Assembly (NCBI GenBank): GCA_900316385.1
Contig: ONCP01000004.1
Location: forward strand, 1-64,000
Direction of reading: 5' to 3'
Length of the DNA: 64,000 nt
Source of the DNA: an uncultured Eubacteriales bacterium
GTDB lineage: Bacteria; Bacillota; Clostridia; Oscillospirales; Acutalibacteraceae
Below, in pieces: positions 20,110 to 33,428 of this stretch. A model generated the notes under the pieces. That model searched no databases, had not been told where the DNA came from, and worked only from the letters and a program-made list of their open reading frames with translations. Both the position numbers and the translations under genes were made by a program. Position 1 is the first letter of the stretch. Each line of letters opens with the position of its first letter.

Positions 20110-20358
20110 AGATAACACGGTGACGAAGAAAGTAGCTTCTCAAGTCCCTTTGTAAAGAGAGCGCGCGTCAAGGCTGAAAACGCGCGACAGAGAGCGAGAG
20201 GTGAAGTTCACTTCCGAGTGGTGAGGCTGAACCACAGTAGGCTTCAACGGCAGACCCCGTTACAGGTCGGGAAAGTGTTTGCTTTTTGCGAAAATATAGG
20301 GTGGTACCGCGGATTATTTTTGAAATTCGTCCCTTCGTTTGAAGGGGCTTTTTATTTT
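20110..20358 (+). promoter_or_regulatory. T-box riboswitch (Phe) controlling pheST
   Basis: The T-box core AGGGTGGTACCGCGG is at 20298-20312, preceded by the structured stem I region (GACGAAGAAAGTAG onward) and AGTAGG element. A terminator CCCTTC-GTTT-GAAGGGG followed by TTTTTATTTT lies at 20331-20358. Uncharged tRNA-Phe should stabilise the antiterminator and switch on the genes. A TTC at 20207-20209 inside a GAAG/CTTC stem is the best specifier candidate and matches the phenylalanyl-tRNA synthetase genes downstream. Confidence 0.93.
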
Positions 20359-26219: not shown

Positions 26220-26702
26220 TTATGAAAATAACGCGGTAAGTTTTATCTCTTTTATTTCTAATTCAGAAATATAACCTGTATTTATATCTGTTTTAAGGGT
26301 ATAGTTTCCACTATTGCATTTGCCTTTATATTCTGCTAAAGAATTATAACTTCCGTTAAGCACCGCTTTTTCTCTGTTGACCGATTTTAAGACATTGTAA
26401 ATAGCTCCCGCGAAGGATGTTGAGGGAAGATAATCATCGGCACTGTCAGTATTAAGTTCTTTATAATTAACGTTCAGCCTTCCGCCTTTATACGTGTAAG
26501 TGTAACCCTCAACACCGCTTGGCTCGAGCATTTTTATTACGAGATCATTGTGCTTTTCTGCGTTGATCTCGGCTTTAAGCTTAGTTCCGTTATAATCGCA
26601 GTCAATCGTTGCAGAAAAATCCTTTTTTATTTCGGCAGGTTTTTTTGAGCATGAGCAGAGAATTAAGCACAGGATTAAAATCGTAATCATTCGGAGTTTC
26701 AC
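26220..26702 (-). CDS. hypothetical lipoprotein
   Basis: 160 residues with a short lipoprotein signal ([18 protein letters not shown], lipidation at the Cys of LCSC). The mature part is beta-rich with alternating Lys/Glu/Tyr, reminiscent of outer-face lipoproteins that hold small hydrophobic ligands or cell-wall partners, but no family is recognised. It lies upstream of mazF on the same strand and is divergent from the cobalamin riboswitch operon. Confidence 0.65.
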
Positions 26703-26741: not shown

Positions 26742-26770
26742 TTGACTGCCGACGATAAACGTGATATAGT
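26742..26770 (+). promoter_or_regulatory. promoter of the cobalamin-riboswitch operon
   Basis: TTGACT, 17-base spacer, TATAGT, about 15 bases before the aptamer. Confidence 0.8.
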
Positions 26771-26787
26771 ATTTTGGTAAAAACAGA

Positions 26788-26948
26788 ATAGATTACGCGG
26801 TTTCGCGAGAATTAATCGGGAAGACGGTCAGAGTCCGTCGCAACAGCCATTACCGTGTTCGGCTAAAGAAAGCGATATGCCACTGAGAAATCGGGAAGGC
26901 GCTTTGTAATATAAGCCGTAAGTCGGGAGACCTGCCGCGTATGTTTTC
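26788..26948 (+). promoter_or_regulatory. cobalamin riboswitch aptamer
   Basis: Conserved blocks appear in order: AATTAATCGGGAA, GACGGTC...GACCGTC-like pairing with GCAACAGCC, the invariant B12-box region ATGCCACTG, AATCGGGAAGGCG, and AGTCGGGAGACCTGCC. Together these are diagnostic for the AdoCbl-type element. A terminator follows at 26984-27023, so cobalamin binding should stop transcription of the downstream uptake genes. Confidence 0.95.
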
Positions 26949-26983
26949 GGTATTGATTTTTGGGCAAGGGAAAATCGGTTCAT

Positions 26984-27023
26984 CTCTCTTAAAGGAGTAA
27001 CTATGCCCTTTAGGAGTTTTTTT
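26984..27023 (+). terminator. riboswitch-controlled terminator
   Basis: CTCTTAAAGG pairs with CCTTTAGGAG around a 10-base loop, followed by seven Ts, just ahead of the first gene of the operon. Confidence 0.85.
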
Positions 27024-27047
27024 ATTTATTTTAGGAGGAATCAGAAA

Positions 27048-28511
27048 ATGAAAAAATTCATTTCAGTAGTTCTCGTCGCTTTGATGATTATGTCGCTTTT
27101 CGCGATATCGGTAAGCGCCGAGGATGGATCAGTCAGCGTTCGTATTGAGGGCGCAACAAATACCATTTATGTCGGGACGGTCGGGTTAGAAATTAACGAC
27201 GACACAACCGTTGCCGATGTGCTCAAGGCTTTGATCGACAGCGGAAGCGGCGTTTCGATCACAGGTCTCGACACAGGCTATATCACTGAGATCAACGGTG
27301 AAAAGGCGGATCAGTTCAGCCGGCCTGACGACTATGTTTACGACGGTTGGTATTACGCTGTTTCTGACGTAGTTCCCTCTGAGGGCATATCTTCGTGTGT
27401 CGTTTCTGACGGTGACGAGATAGTTCTTTTCTACGGAGACTATCCCTGTCAGTTCCCGGTAATGGACACAAATGATTATCAGAACGGCAAAATCAAGTTT
27501 GAAAGCTATGATTATGTCAATGGATATATGGATGAAGAAAGCAACGAATGGATCAGCGAGTATGATTGGTGTCCCGTGAAGAACGCTGTTGTTTATCTAA
27601 ACGACGATGTGTATACAACGAATGATAACGGTGAAATCACTGTTGAGCCGACCGATTACACAGGCTTTGTAACTGTCCAAATCTCCAAGACAAGCTCGAT
27701 CGGAGCTCCCGCAGTCTGCCGTTTCGCTTCCGATTATGGGTTTGACGCTGATGAAGAAAACGCTAAGGACGAGACAACAGAGCCTTTAACAGAGGAACCT
27801 ACAACAGAGGAACCCACAACAGCAGAGCCTACAACTGAGACTCCCACCACAGAGGAACCCACAACAGAAGAGCCTACAACTGAGGCTCCCGTGACAGAGG
27901 AACCCACAACAGCCGAGCCTACAACCGAGGCTCCCGCGACGGAGGAACCCACAACAGCCGAGCCTACAACAGAAGCTCCCGTAACAGAGGAACCCACAAC
28001 AGCCGAGCCTACAACCGAGGCTCCCACTACCGAGAAACCTACCGAAGGTACTGTCATCAAACCCACGGTAACCGTAACTCCTTCGGCAACTTTTAAGTTC
28101 ACGAAAACGCTTTTTGTAACAGGTACCTTTAAGTTTGATTACACAAGTGAAAGTAAGATAAAGTTCACAAGCTCCAAAAAGGATGTAGCCAAGGTTGACG
28201 GAAAAGGCAAAGTTACCGCTCTCAAGGCAGGAAAAGCCACTGTAACAGCGAAGCTTGGTAAAATCAAGGTTCAGTATGTTGTAACCGTAAAGAATCCGAC
28301 ACTCAATTCCGCAAAGCTCAAGCTCAATAAAGGCAAGAGCTTTACACTCAAGGTGAAGGGGCTTATCGGCAAGGCGAAGTTTGTTTCCGTAAACAAGAAT
28401 ATCGCGTCTGTCAGCTCCAAGGGTAAAATTATTGCAAAGAAAAAGGGTAATGCCGTAATCAAGGTTATTGCTAACGGTGTTACATTAAAGTGTAAGGTAA
28501 CAGTAAAATAA
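27048..28511 (+). CDS. secreted DUF4430 / Ig-like repeat protein, putative cobalamin-binding surface protein
   Basis: 487 residues. Signal peptide 1-24 (cleavage after VSA). Residues ~40-135 are a DUF4430 domain (DDTTVADVLKAL, GWYYAVSDVVPSEG, DGDEIVLFYGDYPC), the fold of the C-terminal domain of transcobalamin. Residues ~170-215 look like a carboxypeptidase-regulatory-like beta domain (VKNAVVYLNDD..TTNDNGEITV). Residues ~241-331 are a Thr/Glu/Pro linker of TEEPTTAEPT units. The C-terminus holds two Ig-like (Big_2 type) domains. There is no LPxTG motif or membrane tail, so cell association may rely on the Ig-like part. First gene after the cobalamin riboswitch. Ligand binding is inferred from fold and regulation. 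Confidence 0.85.
   Translation: MKKFISVVLVALMIMSLFAISVSAEDGSVSVRIEGATNTIYVGTVGLEINDDTTVADVLKALIDSGSGVSITGLDTGYITEINGEKADQFSRPDDYVYDGWYYAVSDVVPSEGISSCVVSDGDEIVLFYGDYPCQFPVMDTNDYQNGKIKFESYDYVNGYMDEESNEWISEYDWCPVKNAVVYLNDDVYTTNDNGEITVEPTDYTGFVTVQISKTSSIGAPAVCRFASDYGFDADEENAKDETTEPLTEEPTTEEPTTAEPTTETPTTEEPTTEEPTTEAPVTEEPTTAEPTTEAPATEEPTTAEPTTEAPVTEEPTTAEPTTEAPTTEKPTEGTVIKPTVTVTPSATFKFTKTLFVTGTFKFDYTSESKIKFTSSKKDVAKVDGKGKVTALKAGKATVTAKLGKIKVQYVVTVKNPTLNSAKLKLNKGKSFTLKVKGLIGKAKFVSVNKNIASVSSKGKIIAKKKGNAVIKVIANGVTLKCKVTVK
27776..28035 (+). repeat. in-frame repeat encoding TEEPTT/TEAP linker
   Basis: About 20 imperfect 12-18 base units (ACAGAGGAACCCACAACAGC and variants) encoding an extended Thr-Pro-Glu stalk. 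Units stay in frame and differ at third positions; length is likely variable between strains. Confidence 0.85.
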
Positions 28512-28523
28512 TAGAGGTAGATT

Positions 28524-29927
28524 ATGGGTAAAAGACTTTTTGCGACAATTCTGGCTGTTTTTACAGCCATAGCCGCGTCTTTTACCGTTAACGGTGTTGA
28601 AATCAACGCTCCCGATGATGTTAAAGACGTTATCGGGAGCGCTGTTTCGTATAAATGCGCCGATATGGGCTGCGAAAGCATATCGGAGTTACTTGACGCG
28701 CTCAGCAAAAACGCGGGAAATTTTTCATCTGACTGGTATTTTATAGCTCTTTCCCAGTTGGGAGAAAAATGTGAAAACGATAAATGCGTCAACGCTCTGA
28801 AAAGCACAGTAAATAATTTTTATGATGAGGGCCTTGAAAAGCAGAAGGTCACGGATCTTCAGCGCGTGGCGTTCGCTTTGAGCGCTTTCGGAGTTGATAT
28901 TACCGATATTGATGGTCACAATCTGCTTGCCGACGCGAGCTATAACCGCAAAGCCGTAAATAAACTTGACAGTCAGGGTGCGAACTCCGCTTCCTATGGT
29001 CTGCTGTTGCTTGATTCAAAGAATTATCAGCTTCCGAAAAACGCGTTGAATACACGCGGCGAGATCATTGATATGATACTTGATAAGGAGCTTGAAAACG
29101 GCGGCTTCGCGCTTTTCGGCGAATATGCCGATATCGACGTAACGACTATTGCGCTCCAGGCGCTGGCTCAGTATAAGAACAACGATAGGGTAGAGCCTGT
29201 GGTCGAGCGCTGCGTAAATATCCTTTCAAAGCGTCAGAGTAAGTCAGGCGCTTACAAGTCATTTGCCAATCAGATCTCCTGCGAGAGCACGGCACAGGTG
29301 ATTCTCGCGTTGACCTCGCTCGGTATTGACCCGAGCTCTGATGAGCGCTTTATCAAAGATGGCAATTCCGTGCTTGACGGATTGCTTAGGTTCAGGCTTG
29401 AGAGCGGAGCTTTTTCTCATTTTGAGAACGGGAAAGCGGATAATATGGCGACATATCAGTCGTTGTGCGCGCTTGTTTCGGTTTACCGATTTATGAAGGG
29501 AGAAAAGAGCTTTTATGATTTTTCGGAGAAGCCAGAACCCGAGACTGTTAAGGTCAACACCGAGCCCGCTTCCGAATTTCTTGAAACAGAAGCGAGAAAA
29601 ACAGATAATAATTCTGTATCAGAAAATAAAATAATTGAAACAACAACACAAAAACCTACCGAAGCTTCTGTATATAACACTGAAAAGACAGAAGAAACAC
29701 AGAAGACGACCTTTAATAATTCAAAAAAAATAAAGCAAAAGAAAAATGAACCGACAACCGTTGCGCCAACAACTGTCGCGACTGTTTCAACACAGAAAAT
29801 ATCGGAGAGCGAAAGCATTACTCCGTTTAAATATAATTCCAAGAAAGAAAATAAACCGAATGTGCAGTATATTTCGGTTATTGTTTTAACAATCGGATAT
29901 ATTGCTGTCGTAATAAGAAAACGATGA
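28524..29927 (+). CDS. surface-anchored alpha-toroid protein (terpene cyclase/prenyltransferase-like, intrinsic-factor alpha-domain-like)
   Basis: 467 residues. A signal peptide (1-25) is followed by a helical-repeat region (~30-345) with recurring ALSALG, TTIALQALAQY, STAQVILALTSLGIDP, LRFRLESGAF and TYQSLCALVSVYR. This is the alternating pattern of alpha6/alpha6 toroids, shared by squalene cyclases and by the N-terminal domain of intrinsic factor and transcobalamin. There is no cyclase DxDD motif, arguing for binding rather than catalysis. A Thr/Lys-rich linker (~346-440), one transmembrane helix (VQYISVIVLTIGYIAVVI) and RKR anchor it. It lies 12 bases after the preceding gene and overlaps the next by 4. 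Confidence 0.8.
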   Translation: MGKRLFATILAVFTAIAASFTVNGVEINAPDDVKDVIGSAVSYKCADMGCESISELLDALSKNAGNFSSDWYFIALSQLGEKCENDKCVNALKSTVNNFYDEGLEKQKVTDLQRVAFALSAFGVDITDIDGHNLLADASYNRKAVNKLDSQGANSASYGLLLLDSKNYQLPKNALNTRGEIIDMILDKELENGGFALFGEYADIDVTTIALQALAQYKNNDRVEPVVERCVNILSKRQSKSGAYKSFANQISCESTAQVILALTSLGIDPSSDERFIKDGNSVLDGLLRFRLESGAFSHFENGKADNMATYQSLCALVSVYRFMKGEKSFYDFSEKPEPETVKVNTEPASEFLETEARKTDNNSVSENKIIETTTQKPTEASVYNTEKTEETQKTTFNNSKKIKQKKNEPTTVAPTTVATVSTQKISESESITPFKYNSKKENKPNVQYISVIVLTIGYIAVVIRKR

Positions 29928-30421
29928 AAAGAAACTGTCTGTTACTGATCACAATTATAATAATTTCGATTCTAAATTCCTGCGAGATCAAATCCGCGGA
30001 CGAGTATTATTCCTCTGCCGCGAGCAAGACCTCGCTCAAAGCCTCTATCCTGATCAATTGCCAAACTGCCGTTGATTATAAGGACTCAAAGAGGGAAAAA
30101 GCCGATATCCTCAAAAAAACAGAGATCGGTTTTAATAAGGGCGAAACTGTGTTTGACGCTCTAAAACGAGCCTGCAAAAACAACAAAATACAGCTTGAGT
30201 TCAAGGGCGACGGCGAAAGCGTGTATGTTGAGGGGATAGATTATCTCTATGAATTTGATTGCGGCTCGCTGTCAGGGTGGGAATACAGCGTGAACGGTGA
30301 GTTCCCGAGCGTAGGCTGTAACGCTTACGAGCTTAAAGAAAATGATGAAATAAGCTGGCTTTACACATGCGAGCTCGGCGCCGATATCGGCGACCGATAT
30401 GAGGGGGCGGAGAATGACTAA
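29924..30421 (+). CDS. DUF4430-domain lipoprotein, transcobalamin beta-domain-like
   Basis: 165 residues. Lipoprotein signal with Cys20 in ILNSC. The C-terminal half is a clear DUF4430 domain: GETVFDALKRACKNN, GSLSGWEYSVNGEFPSVGC, LKENDEISWLYTCELGADIG. In animal B12 carriers this domain covers one face of the corrin ring while the alpha toroid covers the other. Overlaps the toroid gene by 4 bases and the EcfT gene by 8, so translation is tightly coupled. Likely the membrane-proximal binding partner; binding itself is inferred. Confidence 0.85.
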   Translation: MKRNCLLLITIIIISILNSCEIKSADEYYSSAASKTSLKASILINCQTAVDYKDSKREKADILKKTEIGFNKGETVFDALKRACKNNKIQLEFKGDGESVYVEGIDYLYEFDCGSLSGWEYSVNGEFPSVGCNAYELKENDEISWLYTCELGADIGDRYEGAEND

Positions 30422-31238
30422 GCATTTACATCCTTTAACGCTGTTCCTTTGGTTTGCGCTGATAATATCAATGTGTGTTATTACTATGAACCCGTTTTGT
30501 CTTGCGGCGGGCTTTATCGGCGCCGCTCTGTTTTTGATTTGTCAAAAAGGTCACGCCGCCCTGAAAATAATCGGGTTCTCATTTTTTATTGTTGTTATCG
30601 TCGCTGTTACTAACCCTGTTTTTTCTCACAACGGAGCTACGATCCTGTTCTTTGTCAACGACACAAGAATCACTCTTGAAGCGTTGATTTACGGAATCGC
30701 GGCGGGCGTTAAGCTTGCTTCGGTAGTGCTGTGGTTTTCGTGCTTTAACGCTGTGTTTGACAGTGAAAGGCTTATATATATTATAGGTCGCGCTTTTCCG
30801 AAGCTTGCGTTGGTGATTTCGATGTCGCTCGGACTTGTTCCGAGAATGCTCAGGGATTTTCGCTCGATCAATTCTTCGTTGAAAGCTGTGGAAAAGCGGC
30901 GTATCAAAAGGCACCTCGGAGCTTTTTCCGCCTTGTTCACGAGAAGTATGGAGGACGCTATCGTTACAGCTGACTCTATGAGGGCGAGGGGCTACGGACT
31001 GAAGGGGCGAACCTTCTTCAACCGTTTTTGCTATAAATTTCGCGACGTTGTTTATTCGCTGCTGTTTATCGTTTTATTTATGTTCAGCGTTGTTTTAAAT
31101 GTTGAACCTGAGTTTTATCCTATGTATTCTTGTGAGCTGTCGCTCGGATTTGTGTGTTTTGCGGCGCTTGCTTTGATTATGACCGTTTTTGAGCTAAAGG
31201 AGAGTCTGAAATGGAAGCTTTCAATATCAAGAATCTGA
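30414..31238 (+). CDS. ECF transporter T component
   Basis: 274 residues, five to six transmembrane helices, and the coupling helix motif with ADSMRARGYGLKGR, where the Ala-Arg-Gly contacts the ATPases. It is the scaffold linking ATPases to the S component. Start taken at 30414, where GAGGGGGCGG precedes the ATG; it overlaps the lipoprotein stop by 8 bases. Distinct from the general EcfT at 61591-62403, so this operon carries its own complete (group I type) transporter. Confidence 0.9.
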   Translation: MTKHLHPLTLFLWFALIISMCVITMNPFCLAAGFIGAALFLICQKGHAALKIIGFSFFIVVIVAVTNPVFSHNGATILFFVNDTRITLEALIYGIAAGVKLASVVLWFSCFNAVFDSERLIYIIGRAFPKLALVISMSLGLVPRMLRDFRSINSSLKAVEKRRIKRHLGAFSALFTRSMEDAIVTADSMRARGYGLKGRTFFNRFCYKFRDVVYSLLFIVLFMFSVVLNVEPEFYPMYSCELSLGFVCFAALALIMTVFELKESLKWKLSISRI

Positions 31239-32761
31239 GCTTTAAATATGCGGGCTCGGATTTTTGCGCTCTCAAAGATATCGATCTTAACATTGAAAAG
31301 GGAGAGTTTGTCGCGCTGATAGGTGAAAGCGGAAGCTCAAAAACAACTCTTTTGAAGCTGCTCAAAAAGGAGCTCAGCCCAAAGGGCGAGCTGAACGGAG
31401 AAATATTCTTTGAAGGAATTAAAATAAAGGAGCTTTCACACAGAGACAGCGCTCAAAAAATCGGATACATCTCTCAAAATCCCGACAGTCAGCTTGTCAC
31501 CGATAAAGTATATTCGGAGCTGGCGTTCGGACTTGAAAATCTCGGCTTCGGAAAAGAGGAGATACGTTCGCGCGTTTCCGAATTTGCTTCTTTTTTCAAG
31601 CTTTCCGATTGCTTTAATATGAACGTAAACGACCTTTCGGGCGGTCAGAAGCAGCTTTTGAATCTTGCCTCTGTTATGACGATGCGTCCCGAGGTGCTTC
31701 TTCTTGACGAGCCTACATCAATGCTCGATCCTGTTTCGGCGATAGATTTCATCACAGCGCTCAAGCGTTTATGTGATGACCTAGGTACTACCGTTATAAT
31801 CGCCGAACACCGTCTTGCTGATATCCTTCCGATCGCAGACAGGGTAGTTTGCCTCGAAAACGGCGAAATCATCGCCGACGCTCCGCCGCGATCAATTTGT
31901 TGTCAATTGAAAGACAGAAGAATATACAGAACCTTGCCTGAGGTCTCAAGACTTTTCTATAAGCTTGGAGGTGAGGGAGAGGCTCCGCTTACCATTCGGG
32001 AAGGTCGTAAATTTCTCTACAAGAAAAATAATTTACATATTAATTATTCTGTTAACGAAATAAAGACCGAACCGATCCTTTCGGCGAAAGAGCTTTGGTT
32101 CCGTTACGAAAGAAAAACGCCTGATATCCTAAAGGGTGTGAGTTTTAATGTGAACCGAGGCGAGGTTTACGCTCTTGTCGGAGCGAATGGTTGCGGTAAA
32201 TCAACCTTGATCGGCGTTTTGTCGGGACGACTGAAAGCGTACAGAGGAAAGGTGAAGCGCGGCGGGAAAATTGCGGTCTTACCTCAGAATCCAAGGGATC
32301 TGTTCGTAAAGGATACGCTTGAGGAGGATTTTAAGAGTGTTAATAATTCTTATACAGAATTATGTAATGCTTTTGAGATTATCTCTTTGCTTTCCCGACA
32401 TCCATATGATCTGTCGGGCGGAGAGCTTCAGAAGGCGGCTGTCGTCAAGCTTCTGCTATCTTCGCCGAGCATTCTTATGCTTGACGAGCCGACAAAGGGT
32501 CTGGACAGCTTTGCAAAGTCAGAGCTCGGCGAGCTGCTTGGAAATCTCGGCGATATCACTGTTCTGCTTGTGACCCACGACCTCGAATTTGCCGCGGAGT
32601 TTTCCGACAGGTGCGGTCTGCTCTTTGACGGTGAAATCACCAGCGAAGACAATTCGCGCGAGTTTTTCAGCTCTAATAATTTTTACACTACACGCGTTGT
32701 TCGCCTTACAAGAGGGATCATCGAAGGCGCTGTTACCGAAAAGGATTTGTATGAAGAATAA
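31211..32761 (+). CDS. fused ECF transporter ATPase (EcfA-EcfA')
   Basis: 516 residues with two ABC ATPase domains in tandem. Domain 1 (1-~225): Walker A GESGSSKTT at 38-46, SQNPDSQLV Q-loop, LSGGQKQ signature, LLLDEPTSMLDP. Domain 2 (~290-516): Walker A GANGCGKST, LSGGELQK signature, LMLDEPTKGLDS. The first Walker A has Ser instead of the usual Gly before the Lys. It powers uptake with the EcfT and S component of this operon. The start overlaps the EcfT end by 28 bases. Confidence 0.92.
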   Translation: MEAFNIKNLSFKYAGSDFCALKDIDLNIEKGEFVALIGESGSSKTTLLKLLKKELSPKGELNGEIFFEGIKIKELSHRDSAQKIGYISQNPDSQLVTDKVYSELAFGLENLGFGKEEIRSRVSEFASFFKLSDCFNMNVNDLSGGQKQLLNLASVMTMRPEVLLLDEPTSMLDPVSAIDFITALKRLCDDLGTTVIIAEHRLADILPIADRVVCLENGEIIADAPPRSICCQLKDRRIYRTLPEVSRLFYKLGGEGEAPLTIREGRKFLYKKNNLHINYSVNEIKTEPILSAKELWFRYERKTPDILKGVSFNVNRGEVYALVGANGCGKSTLIGVLSGRLKAYRGKVKRGGKIAVLPQNPRDLFVKDTLEEDFKSVNNSYTELCNAFEIISLLSRHPYDLSGGELQKAAVVKLLLSSPSILMLDEPTKGLDSFAKSELGELLGNLGDITVLLVTHDLEFAAEFSDRCGLLFDGEITSEDNSREFFSSNNFYTTRVVRLTRGIIEGAVTEKDLYEE

Positions 32762-33428
32762 GACATTGGTTTTTGCTATCTTTTTTTTACTGATACTTTT
32801 GACTGTGATCGGAGGAACTGCTGTTTGGGGTTCAGGCGCGTTCCCGTATATTTCACTTATTACCTCTGTTTTCGCGTGCGTTCCCTTTTTCCTTAGCTTC
32901 GAGGGAGAAAAAAACACGAGGAGAGTGGTTCTCCTCGCGGTTACTGTCGCGATAAGCGTTGCGGGACGCTTTGTTTTTGCGCCTATCCAGTTTTTTAAGC
33001 CCGTTTCGGCTATCGTTATTTTGGCAGGAATGTACTTCGGTTCGGAGTTTGGTTTTCTTACGGGCGCTTTGTCTGCGGTCGTGTCCGATTTTTACTTTGG
33101 TCAGGGTCCGTGGACGCCGTTTCAGATGATTTCGTGGGGCGTTATCGGGCTTTTAGCCGGGATTCTCAGCCGATACCTGATAAAAAACAAGATAATATTA
33201 CTCGTTTTCGGAGCGCTGTCCGGCGCATTGTTCTCGCTGATTATGGATATATGGACGACGCTGAGTATTGAAAACGGCGTTTTTAATATTATGAGGTTTT
33301 TTGCCGCGGTGACAACCTCGTTGCCCGTTATGGCTGTTTACTCTGTATCTAATGTGATTTTTCTTATGATTCTGTCACCGATCTTCGGTAAAAAGATCGA
33401 GCGCCTTAAAACAAAATACGGAATATAA
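32751..33428 (+). CDS. ECF transporter S component, predicted cobalamin-specific
   Basis: 225 residues with about six transmembrane helices. The sequence around GRFVFAPIQFFKPVSAIVILAGMYFG (in parts) and GALSAVVSDFYFGQGPWTPFQMISWG matches the ECF substrate-binding family. The small-side-chain helix 1 that contacts EcfT is present. Specificity for cobalamin (CbrT-like role) is inferred from the riboswitch and the transcobalamin-like proteins, not from a residue signature. Overlaps the ATPase gene by 11 bases; last gene of the operon. Confidence 0.82.
   Translation: MKNKTLVFAIFFLLILLTVIGGTAVWGSGAFPYISLITSVFACVPFFLSFEGEKNTRRVVLLAVTVAISVAGRFVFAPIQFFKPVSAIVILAGMYFGSEFGFLTGALSAVVSDFYFGQGPWTPFQMISWGVIGLLAGILSRYLIKNKIILLVFGALSGALFSLIMDIWTTLSIENGVFNIMRFFAAVTTSLPVMAVYSVSNVIFLMILSPIFGKKIERLKTKYGI

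Follow-up and report, generated by a model that had tools for sequence, protein, structure and literature searches.

A cobalamin-riboswitch operon of an uncultured Eubacteriales bacterium predicted to encode split, intrinsic-factor-like B12 capture and ECF import

Organization of the operon

The window analysed here is a 64,000-nucleotide stretch of DNA from an uncultured Eubacteriales bacterium, a gut-type member of the Clostridia (contig ONCP01000004.1). At positions 26742-33428 it carries an operon of six genes, all on the plus strand and overlapping or at most about a dozen bases apart, preceded by a putative promoter and a cobalamin riboswitch. We read this operon as a scavenging system for vitamin B12 (cobalamin), or for corrinoids more broadly, in which a toroid protein and DUF4430 proteins would capture the ligand outside the cell and a CbrT-like energy-coupling factor (ECF) transporter would import it; we put the probability of this reading at about 0.82. 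The features of the operon are as follows.

26742-26770, plus strand: putative sigma-70-type promoter, TTGACT-17 nt-TATAGT with an extended -10 TG (from consensus match only)
26781-26953, plus strand: cobalamin riboswitch aptamer RF00174, full length (84.7 bits, E 2e-19)
26986-27023, plus strand: intrinsic terminator, the riboswitch expression platform; hairpin at about 26986-27016, then seven U (from fold and sequence)
27048-28511, plus strand: gene 1, secreted DUF4430 (SLBB, transcobalamin-like) protein with signal peptide, DUF4430, Thr/Pro-rich stalk and two Big_2 Ig-like domains (Pfam PF14478 38.2 bits, PF02368 53.6 bits)
28524-29927, plus strand: gene 2, protein with signal peptide, alpha6/alpha6 toroid, Thr-rich linker and C-terminal membrane anchor (from the toroid family, a structure model and PDB folds)
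29924-30421, plus strand: gene 3, DUF4430 (SLBB) lipoprotein or signal-anchored protein (PF14478 72.5 bits)
30414-31238, plus strand: gene 4, EcfT (CbiQ-like) transmembrane energy-coupling protein (PF02361 just under the cut-off; six hydrophobic segments; conserved in relatives)
31211-32761, plus strand: gene 5, fused EcfA-EcfA ATPase (two ABC_tran stretches in Pfam; TIGR04520 309 bits)
32751-33428, plus strand: gene 6, CbrT-like ECF S component (best PDB match of the family profile 6fnp_A, CbrT)

An earlier note on this DNA had described a promoter, a riboswitch with terminator and six tightly packed genes. The regulatory elements were all recovered: the covariance-model score of the aptamer is above the curated RF00174 cut-off of 31.5 bits, and the terminator hairpin folds with -14.1 kcal/mol (z -2.7). 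The content and spacing of the genes also stood, while three starts were revised. Gene 1 is taken to start at ATG 27048 and not at 27003, because the latter ATG sits in the terminator loop, and 30414 and 32751 are the more likely starts of EcfT and the S component, respectively.

Both DUF4430 proteins score above the PF14478 cut-off of 23.8 bits. The signal peptide and the PF14478 and PF02368 matches of gene 1 bear out its description as a secreted DUF4430 protein with stalk and Ig-like domains. The proposal that gene 3 encodes a lipoprotein is borne out in part: the DUF4430 domain is present and close relatives have clear lipoboxes, but its own lipobox, LNSC, is atypical. Identity of gene 3 to its relatives is 42-69%, and most of the distant ones are anchored by a hydrophobic N-terminus, not by a lipobox. 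The Pfam match of gene 2, to the prenyltransferase/squalene-cyclase toroid, is weak and sub-threshold. No TonB-dependent outer-membrane receptor domain was found by Pfam in the six operon proteins.

Riboswitch, transporter and B12 supply of the host

A genome search showed that the riboswitch at 26781-26953 is the only RF00174 copy in the host genome. In all eight best-matching loci (L072-L079), an RF00174 element of 85-97 bits lies directly upstream of gene 1 and the gene order is the same as in the window, so that both the operon order and the riboswitch, on whose conservation in relatives the earlier note had staked its proposal, are kept. Among 56 toroid-bearing genomes, 35 of the 60 RF00174 matches were located within 4 kb upstream of a toroid gene on the same strand, where 0.17 would be expected, and 32 of the 56 genomes have such a match. 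Eight cobalamin riboswitch matches occur in the genome G055, and five of these are clustered in about 15 kb next to a toroid operon (C1:184493-199267).

The host genome (G000) is 1.83 Mb in size and 99.9% complete. Its one clear B12-binding protein is a MetH-like methionine synthase with a B12-binding domain. Gene absences in this genome are based on single Pfam searches, which found neither a FecCD permease (the family of BtuC) nor CbiC, the step common to both B12 synthesis routes. Because MetH is present and these two were not found, the host very likely needs external B12, and the operon is the only candidate B12 importer found in the genome by searches that did not extend to other routes such as BtuM or BacA-like uptake. 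CbiC is absent from 63 of 69 toroid-bearing genomes of the order and from 99 of the 128 other genomes (p 0.018, without correction for kinship). RF00174 riboswitches usually sense adenosylcobalamin, yet a PduO-type adenosyltransferase was not found in the host by Pfam search either; the host may have another adenosyltransferase, or the switch may sense another form.

To assign the transporter, a profile built from 30 S components of toroid operons was matched against solved structures. The first match was 6fnp_A, CbrT of Lactobacillus delbrueckii (E 1.5e-19, positions 49-222, nearly full length), and the only other was 4hzu_S (E 6e-6). The 6FNP structure is ECF-CbrT, for which transport of both cobalamin and cobinamide has been demonstrated (PMC5997447). 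Riboflavin specificity, suggested by the Pfam name of gene 6 (PF07155), was considered and rejected, since the family profile goes to CbrT first and the ambiguity of the name is thereby removed. By this comparison with the family profile, CbrT is the closest relative of gene 6 among solved S components. The operon supplies the S component with an EcfT and two ATPases of its own, as expected of a Group I ECF transporter.

CbiQ/CbiO-like genes under a B12 riboswitch are also known in cobalt uptake, and many bacteria take up cobalt by CbiQ/CbiO-type ECF systems (PMC2667541). A cobalt transporter would therefore agree with the weak match of EcfT to Pfam CbiQ. However, the S component groups with CbrT, the operon encodes no CbiM/CbiN-like protein, and a genome that lacks CbiC shows no obvious need of free cobalt for making B12; we regard cobalt as a very improbable substrate. 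A corrinoid or precursor other than cobalamin itself, such as cobinamide or another cobamide, is a less remote alternative, as CbrT imports cobinamide as well as cobalamin (PMC5997447). Against it, CbiC was not found in the genome, the later salvage enzymes CobU and CobS not having been searched for, and we consider it unlikely that such a compound is the substrate instead of cobalamin.

Several variations were seen in the transporter genes. Near residue 40 of EcfA-EcfA (31211-32761), the first P-loop reads GESGSSKT, compared with GxxG(C/S)GK(T/S) in relatives, so that the first ATPase half has Ser in place of Gly. A single reading frame encodes EcfA-EcfA followed by a fused S component in 11 of 66 loci, most of which have two hydrophobic segments in the linker (L121:12270-14954, L129:11806-14481, L130:3897-6560, L131, L135, L143, L146, L148, L151, L089 and L116). 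PMC12075633 presents a model in which the S component detaches from the ECF module during every cycle; covalent tethering of the S component does not fit easily with this model. A second EcfT gene stands beside the S component in nine loci (L085:15091, L086:655, L093:15587, L102:15175, L109:14333, L113:6470, L118:13558, L127:9506 and L137:9351).

The toroid and DUF4430 proteins and their distribution

The earlier note had called the toroid intrinsic-factor-like. The fold itself was supported, the model of gene 2 being a helical alpha6/alpha6 toroid (pLDDT 96), whereas the likeness to intrinsic factor was not evident from the lone domain, which looks like any terpene-cyclase-type toroid. Comparison of the toroid model with the PDB gave terpene cyclases, farnesyltransferase beta and GH105, with transcobalamin at rank 27 (2bb6, E 2.9e-4), and rigid-body alignment placed squalene cyclase first (Z 23.0, root-mean-square deviation (rmsd) 3.0 over 261 residues). 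Because many alpha/alpha toroids resemble it, the toroid is in itself no proof of any link to B12. Squalene-hopene and drimenyl diphosphate synthases are its best profile and rigid-body matches, as they would be if the protein were a secreted terpenoid-type enzyme that lies in a B12 operon by chance. But the toroid is extracellular, membrane-anchored, fused to DUF4430 in relatives and conserved with the riboswitch and ECF genes, and we hold an enzyme of this kind to be highly unlikely.

The association of the toroid with DUF4430 is more informative. The C-terminal domain of transcobalamin is a DUF4430/SLBB domain (PMC4350170, PMC1796856), in agreement with the earlier claim on the fold; PF14478, the mark of the transcobalamin-like SLBB clade, is found in genes 1 and 3, and these are the only two DUF4430 domains of the host genome. 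In the window the toroid and DUF4430 are on two separate genes and do not form a single-chain carrier. Natural fusions of the two on one chain, in the order of intrinsic factor, occur in the relatives L079, L087, L106, L136 and L035. Two hydrophobic segments (a membrane hairpin) lie between the fused domains, and therefore both domains would be outside the membrane.

A model of the fusion L106 (pLDDT 84) was compared with the PDB. The top 14 matches comprise all the chains of intrinsic factor, transcobalamin and haptocorrin listed (E 4e-8 to 4e-7), and terpene cyclases follow as the next family (E 4e-5). In the rigid-body alignments of the toroid and L106 models the generic toroid dominates, and these alignments are thus uninformative about the toroid-DUF4430 pair. 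In the L106 model, DUF4430 has strands at 483-486 and 495-499 after the helix at 468-478, as the transcobalamin-like SLBB clade requires; in this model the two strands agree with the hairpin by which transcobalamin touches B12.

The toroid domain of gene 2 is present in 69 of 197 genomes of the same order, and the toroid family in 97 of 291 sampled genomes of the class. Among 40 regions around toroid matches in the order, 27 contain EcfT, nearly all of them with EcfAA and the S component as well. A scan of named genomes with a 13-row toroid alignment found at least 531 stretches encoding relatives, and the best 80 loci were used for counts. These loci, found by the toroid alone and many of them cut by contig ends, include Ruminococcus bromii, Clostridium cadaveris, Clostridium tagluense, Desulfosporosinus, Papillibacter cinnamivorans, Kurthia, Siminovitchia and Pseudogracilibacillus. 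DUF4430 was found in 78/80, EcfT in 72/80 and the set of EcfT, EcfAA and S component in 66/80. Together with the riboswitch counts above, this survey, which the earlier note had suggested, shows that toroid, DUF4430 and ECF genes co-occur across Clostridia and extend to Bacilli.

In many relatives the toroid or DUF4430 proteins also carry SLH, dockerin, Ig-like, FIVAR or Glug domains, and sugar-active enzymes share the toroid fold. It may be asked, therefore, whether B12 import rests with the ECF part only, and the proteins with toroid and DUF4430 domains serve in surface or glycan attachment, or display the transporter in the wall, with no contact to B12. We think this improbable: it is the attachment domains that differ among relatives, the toroid and DUF4430 being constant, and this pair goes together with cobalamin riboswitches and CbrT-type ECF genes and is fused in the order of intrinsic factor.

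Gene clusters of this type also encode giant proteins of about 940-2060 aa that combine a toroid or DUF4430 with Glug, Big, FIVAR, InlB-repeat or SLH domains (L041:11296-17487, L068:1229-7222, L083:1867-5304, L100:3441-7256 and L064:8107-10923). Toroid proteins of about 360 aa at L047:4008-5090 and L055:8148-9224 have no ECF genes nearby, and no RF00174 match was found in their genomes (G131 and G077). Elsewhere in the window, a small lipoprotein gene with no confident family match (26220-26702, minus strand) is divergent from the riboswitch operon, and a T-box leader (RF00230, 117 bits) lies at 20111-20337.

The B12 assignment of the earlier note is thus strengthened by the single riboswitch of the genome, the CbrT-type S component, the presence of MetH without a BtuC-type permease or CbiC, the position of riboswitches upstream of toroids, the natural fusions and the match of L106 to the animal carriers. 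Other observations weigh on the opposite side. The lone toroid is at least as similar to terpene cyclases, prenyltransferases and GH105 as it is to transcobalamin. Intrinsic factor and transcobalamin are absent from the solved-structure matches of the toroid profiles, which consist of terpene cyclases and other toroids only, as well as from those of the DUF4430 profile and the fusion profile. The domains of the L106 model are not in the closed arrangement of the carriers (rmsd 11-16 A over both). Some toroid loci have no detectable riboswitch, and ECF genes accompany only the 27 of 40 toroid regions counted above, not all.

Proposed mechanism and relation to known systems

When B12 is scarce, the riboswitch would let transcription run past the terminator. 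On the outer face, the membrane-anchored toroid protein would then close around the corrinoid from one side and a DUF4430 (SLBB) partner from the other, so that B12 would lie between the cavity of the toroid and the hairpin of DUF4430, as it does between the two domains of intrinsic factor or transcobalamin. Gene 3 may be the main partner of the toroid, as its counterpart is toroid-fused in relatives, and the secreted gene 1 product, with its stalk and Ig-like domains, may act as an auxiliary collector that widens the capture zone. The loaded complex would dock on the CbrT-like S component and hand over the ligand, which the EcfT-EcfA-EcfA module would drive across the membrane with ATP, chiefly supplying MetH. 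Cobalamin binding, the clamp, the handover and the choice of DUF4430 partner are what we infer; for the clamp this is because the domain placement in the L106 model differs from that of the closed carriers.

ECF transporters are described as capturing their substrate by the S component alone. The operon may instead encode an ECF transporter with dedicated extracellular delivery proteins, in effect an intrinsic factor split in two and tethered to the membrane that would dock on a CbrT-type S component and deliver B12 to it, a proposal to which we give even odds.

Systems of this kind were predicted by Burroughs et al. in 2007 (PMC1796856), who defined the SLBB superfamily, noted bacterial toroid-SLBB fusions and described toroid/SLBB genes in operons with CbiO-/CbiQ-like genes in bacteria short of B12 synthesis. 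They proposed B12 scavenging and cell-surface complexes, and a transfer of the toroid-SLBB pair to animals. The operon in the window likewise has a toroid and SLBB with CbiO/CbiQ-type genes, paralogous SLBB proteins in one operon and a B12-synthesis-poor host; it differs from the fusions among the 2007 systems in having toroid and SLBB on separate chains. Since such scavengers were already predicted, it is a strongly supported member of the predicted kind and the core idea is not new. The riboswitch, the S component with its CbrT assignment and the structure of a bacterial fusion are absent from the 2007 paper, which used a far smaller sample. The present analysis adds the riboswitch link, the CbrT assignment, the structural match of a fusion to the carriers, the split or fused membrane-hairpin topology and the prevalence. 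In the open-access literature, subscription papers being outside the scope, no experimental test of the predicted toroid/SLBB B12 system was found, nor any paper linking DUF4430 by name to bacterial B12 uptake.

Like human intrinsic factor, transcobalamin and haptocorrin, the operon combines an alpha6/alpha6 toroid with DUF4430/SLBB, which is C-terminal in the carriers, and its single-chain relative matches the carriers first in the PDB. Unlike them, it splits the domains into two membrane-anchored proteins, and in the bacterial fusions a membrane hairpin separates the domains; profile searches did not reveal any similarity of the toroids at the sequence level. With ECF-CbrT of L. delbrueckii (6FNP, PMC5997447) it shares a CbrT-family S component, EcfT and two ATPases. 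However, L. delbrueckii CbrT shares its ECF module with other S components, whereas the window encodes a dedicated module with fused ATPases and extracellular capture proteins in the operon. Surface proteins that catch B12 for an importer are also known in Bacteroides (BtuB/BtuG, BtuH and BtuJ; PMC6143338, PMC8941943, PMC13398666), but these belong to a TonB-dependent outer-membrane route and have unrelated folds, and are only analogous to the system in the window.

Vitamin B12 is contested in the gut. A 2019 gut-genome survey described finding the B12 transport systems of many of its genomes as an open problem (PMC6593275). If our reading is true, the operon would represent a major Gram-positive route of B12 capture, with the toroid family in about a third of the sampled genomes of the class. 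A physical capture-and-delivery module outside the cell would be a new arrangement for ECF transporters. The system would also be a living counterpart of the animal B12 carriers, and it would become testable whether, as proposed in 2007, animals obtained these carriers from bacteria of this kind.

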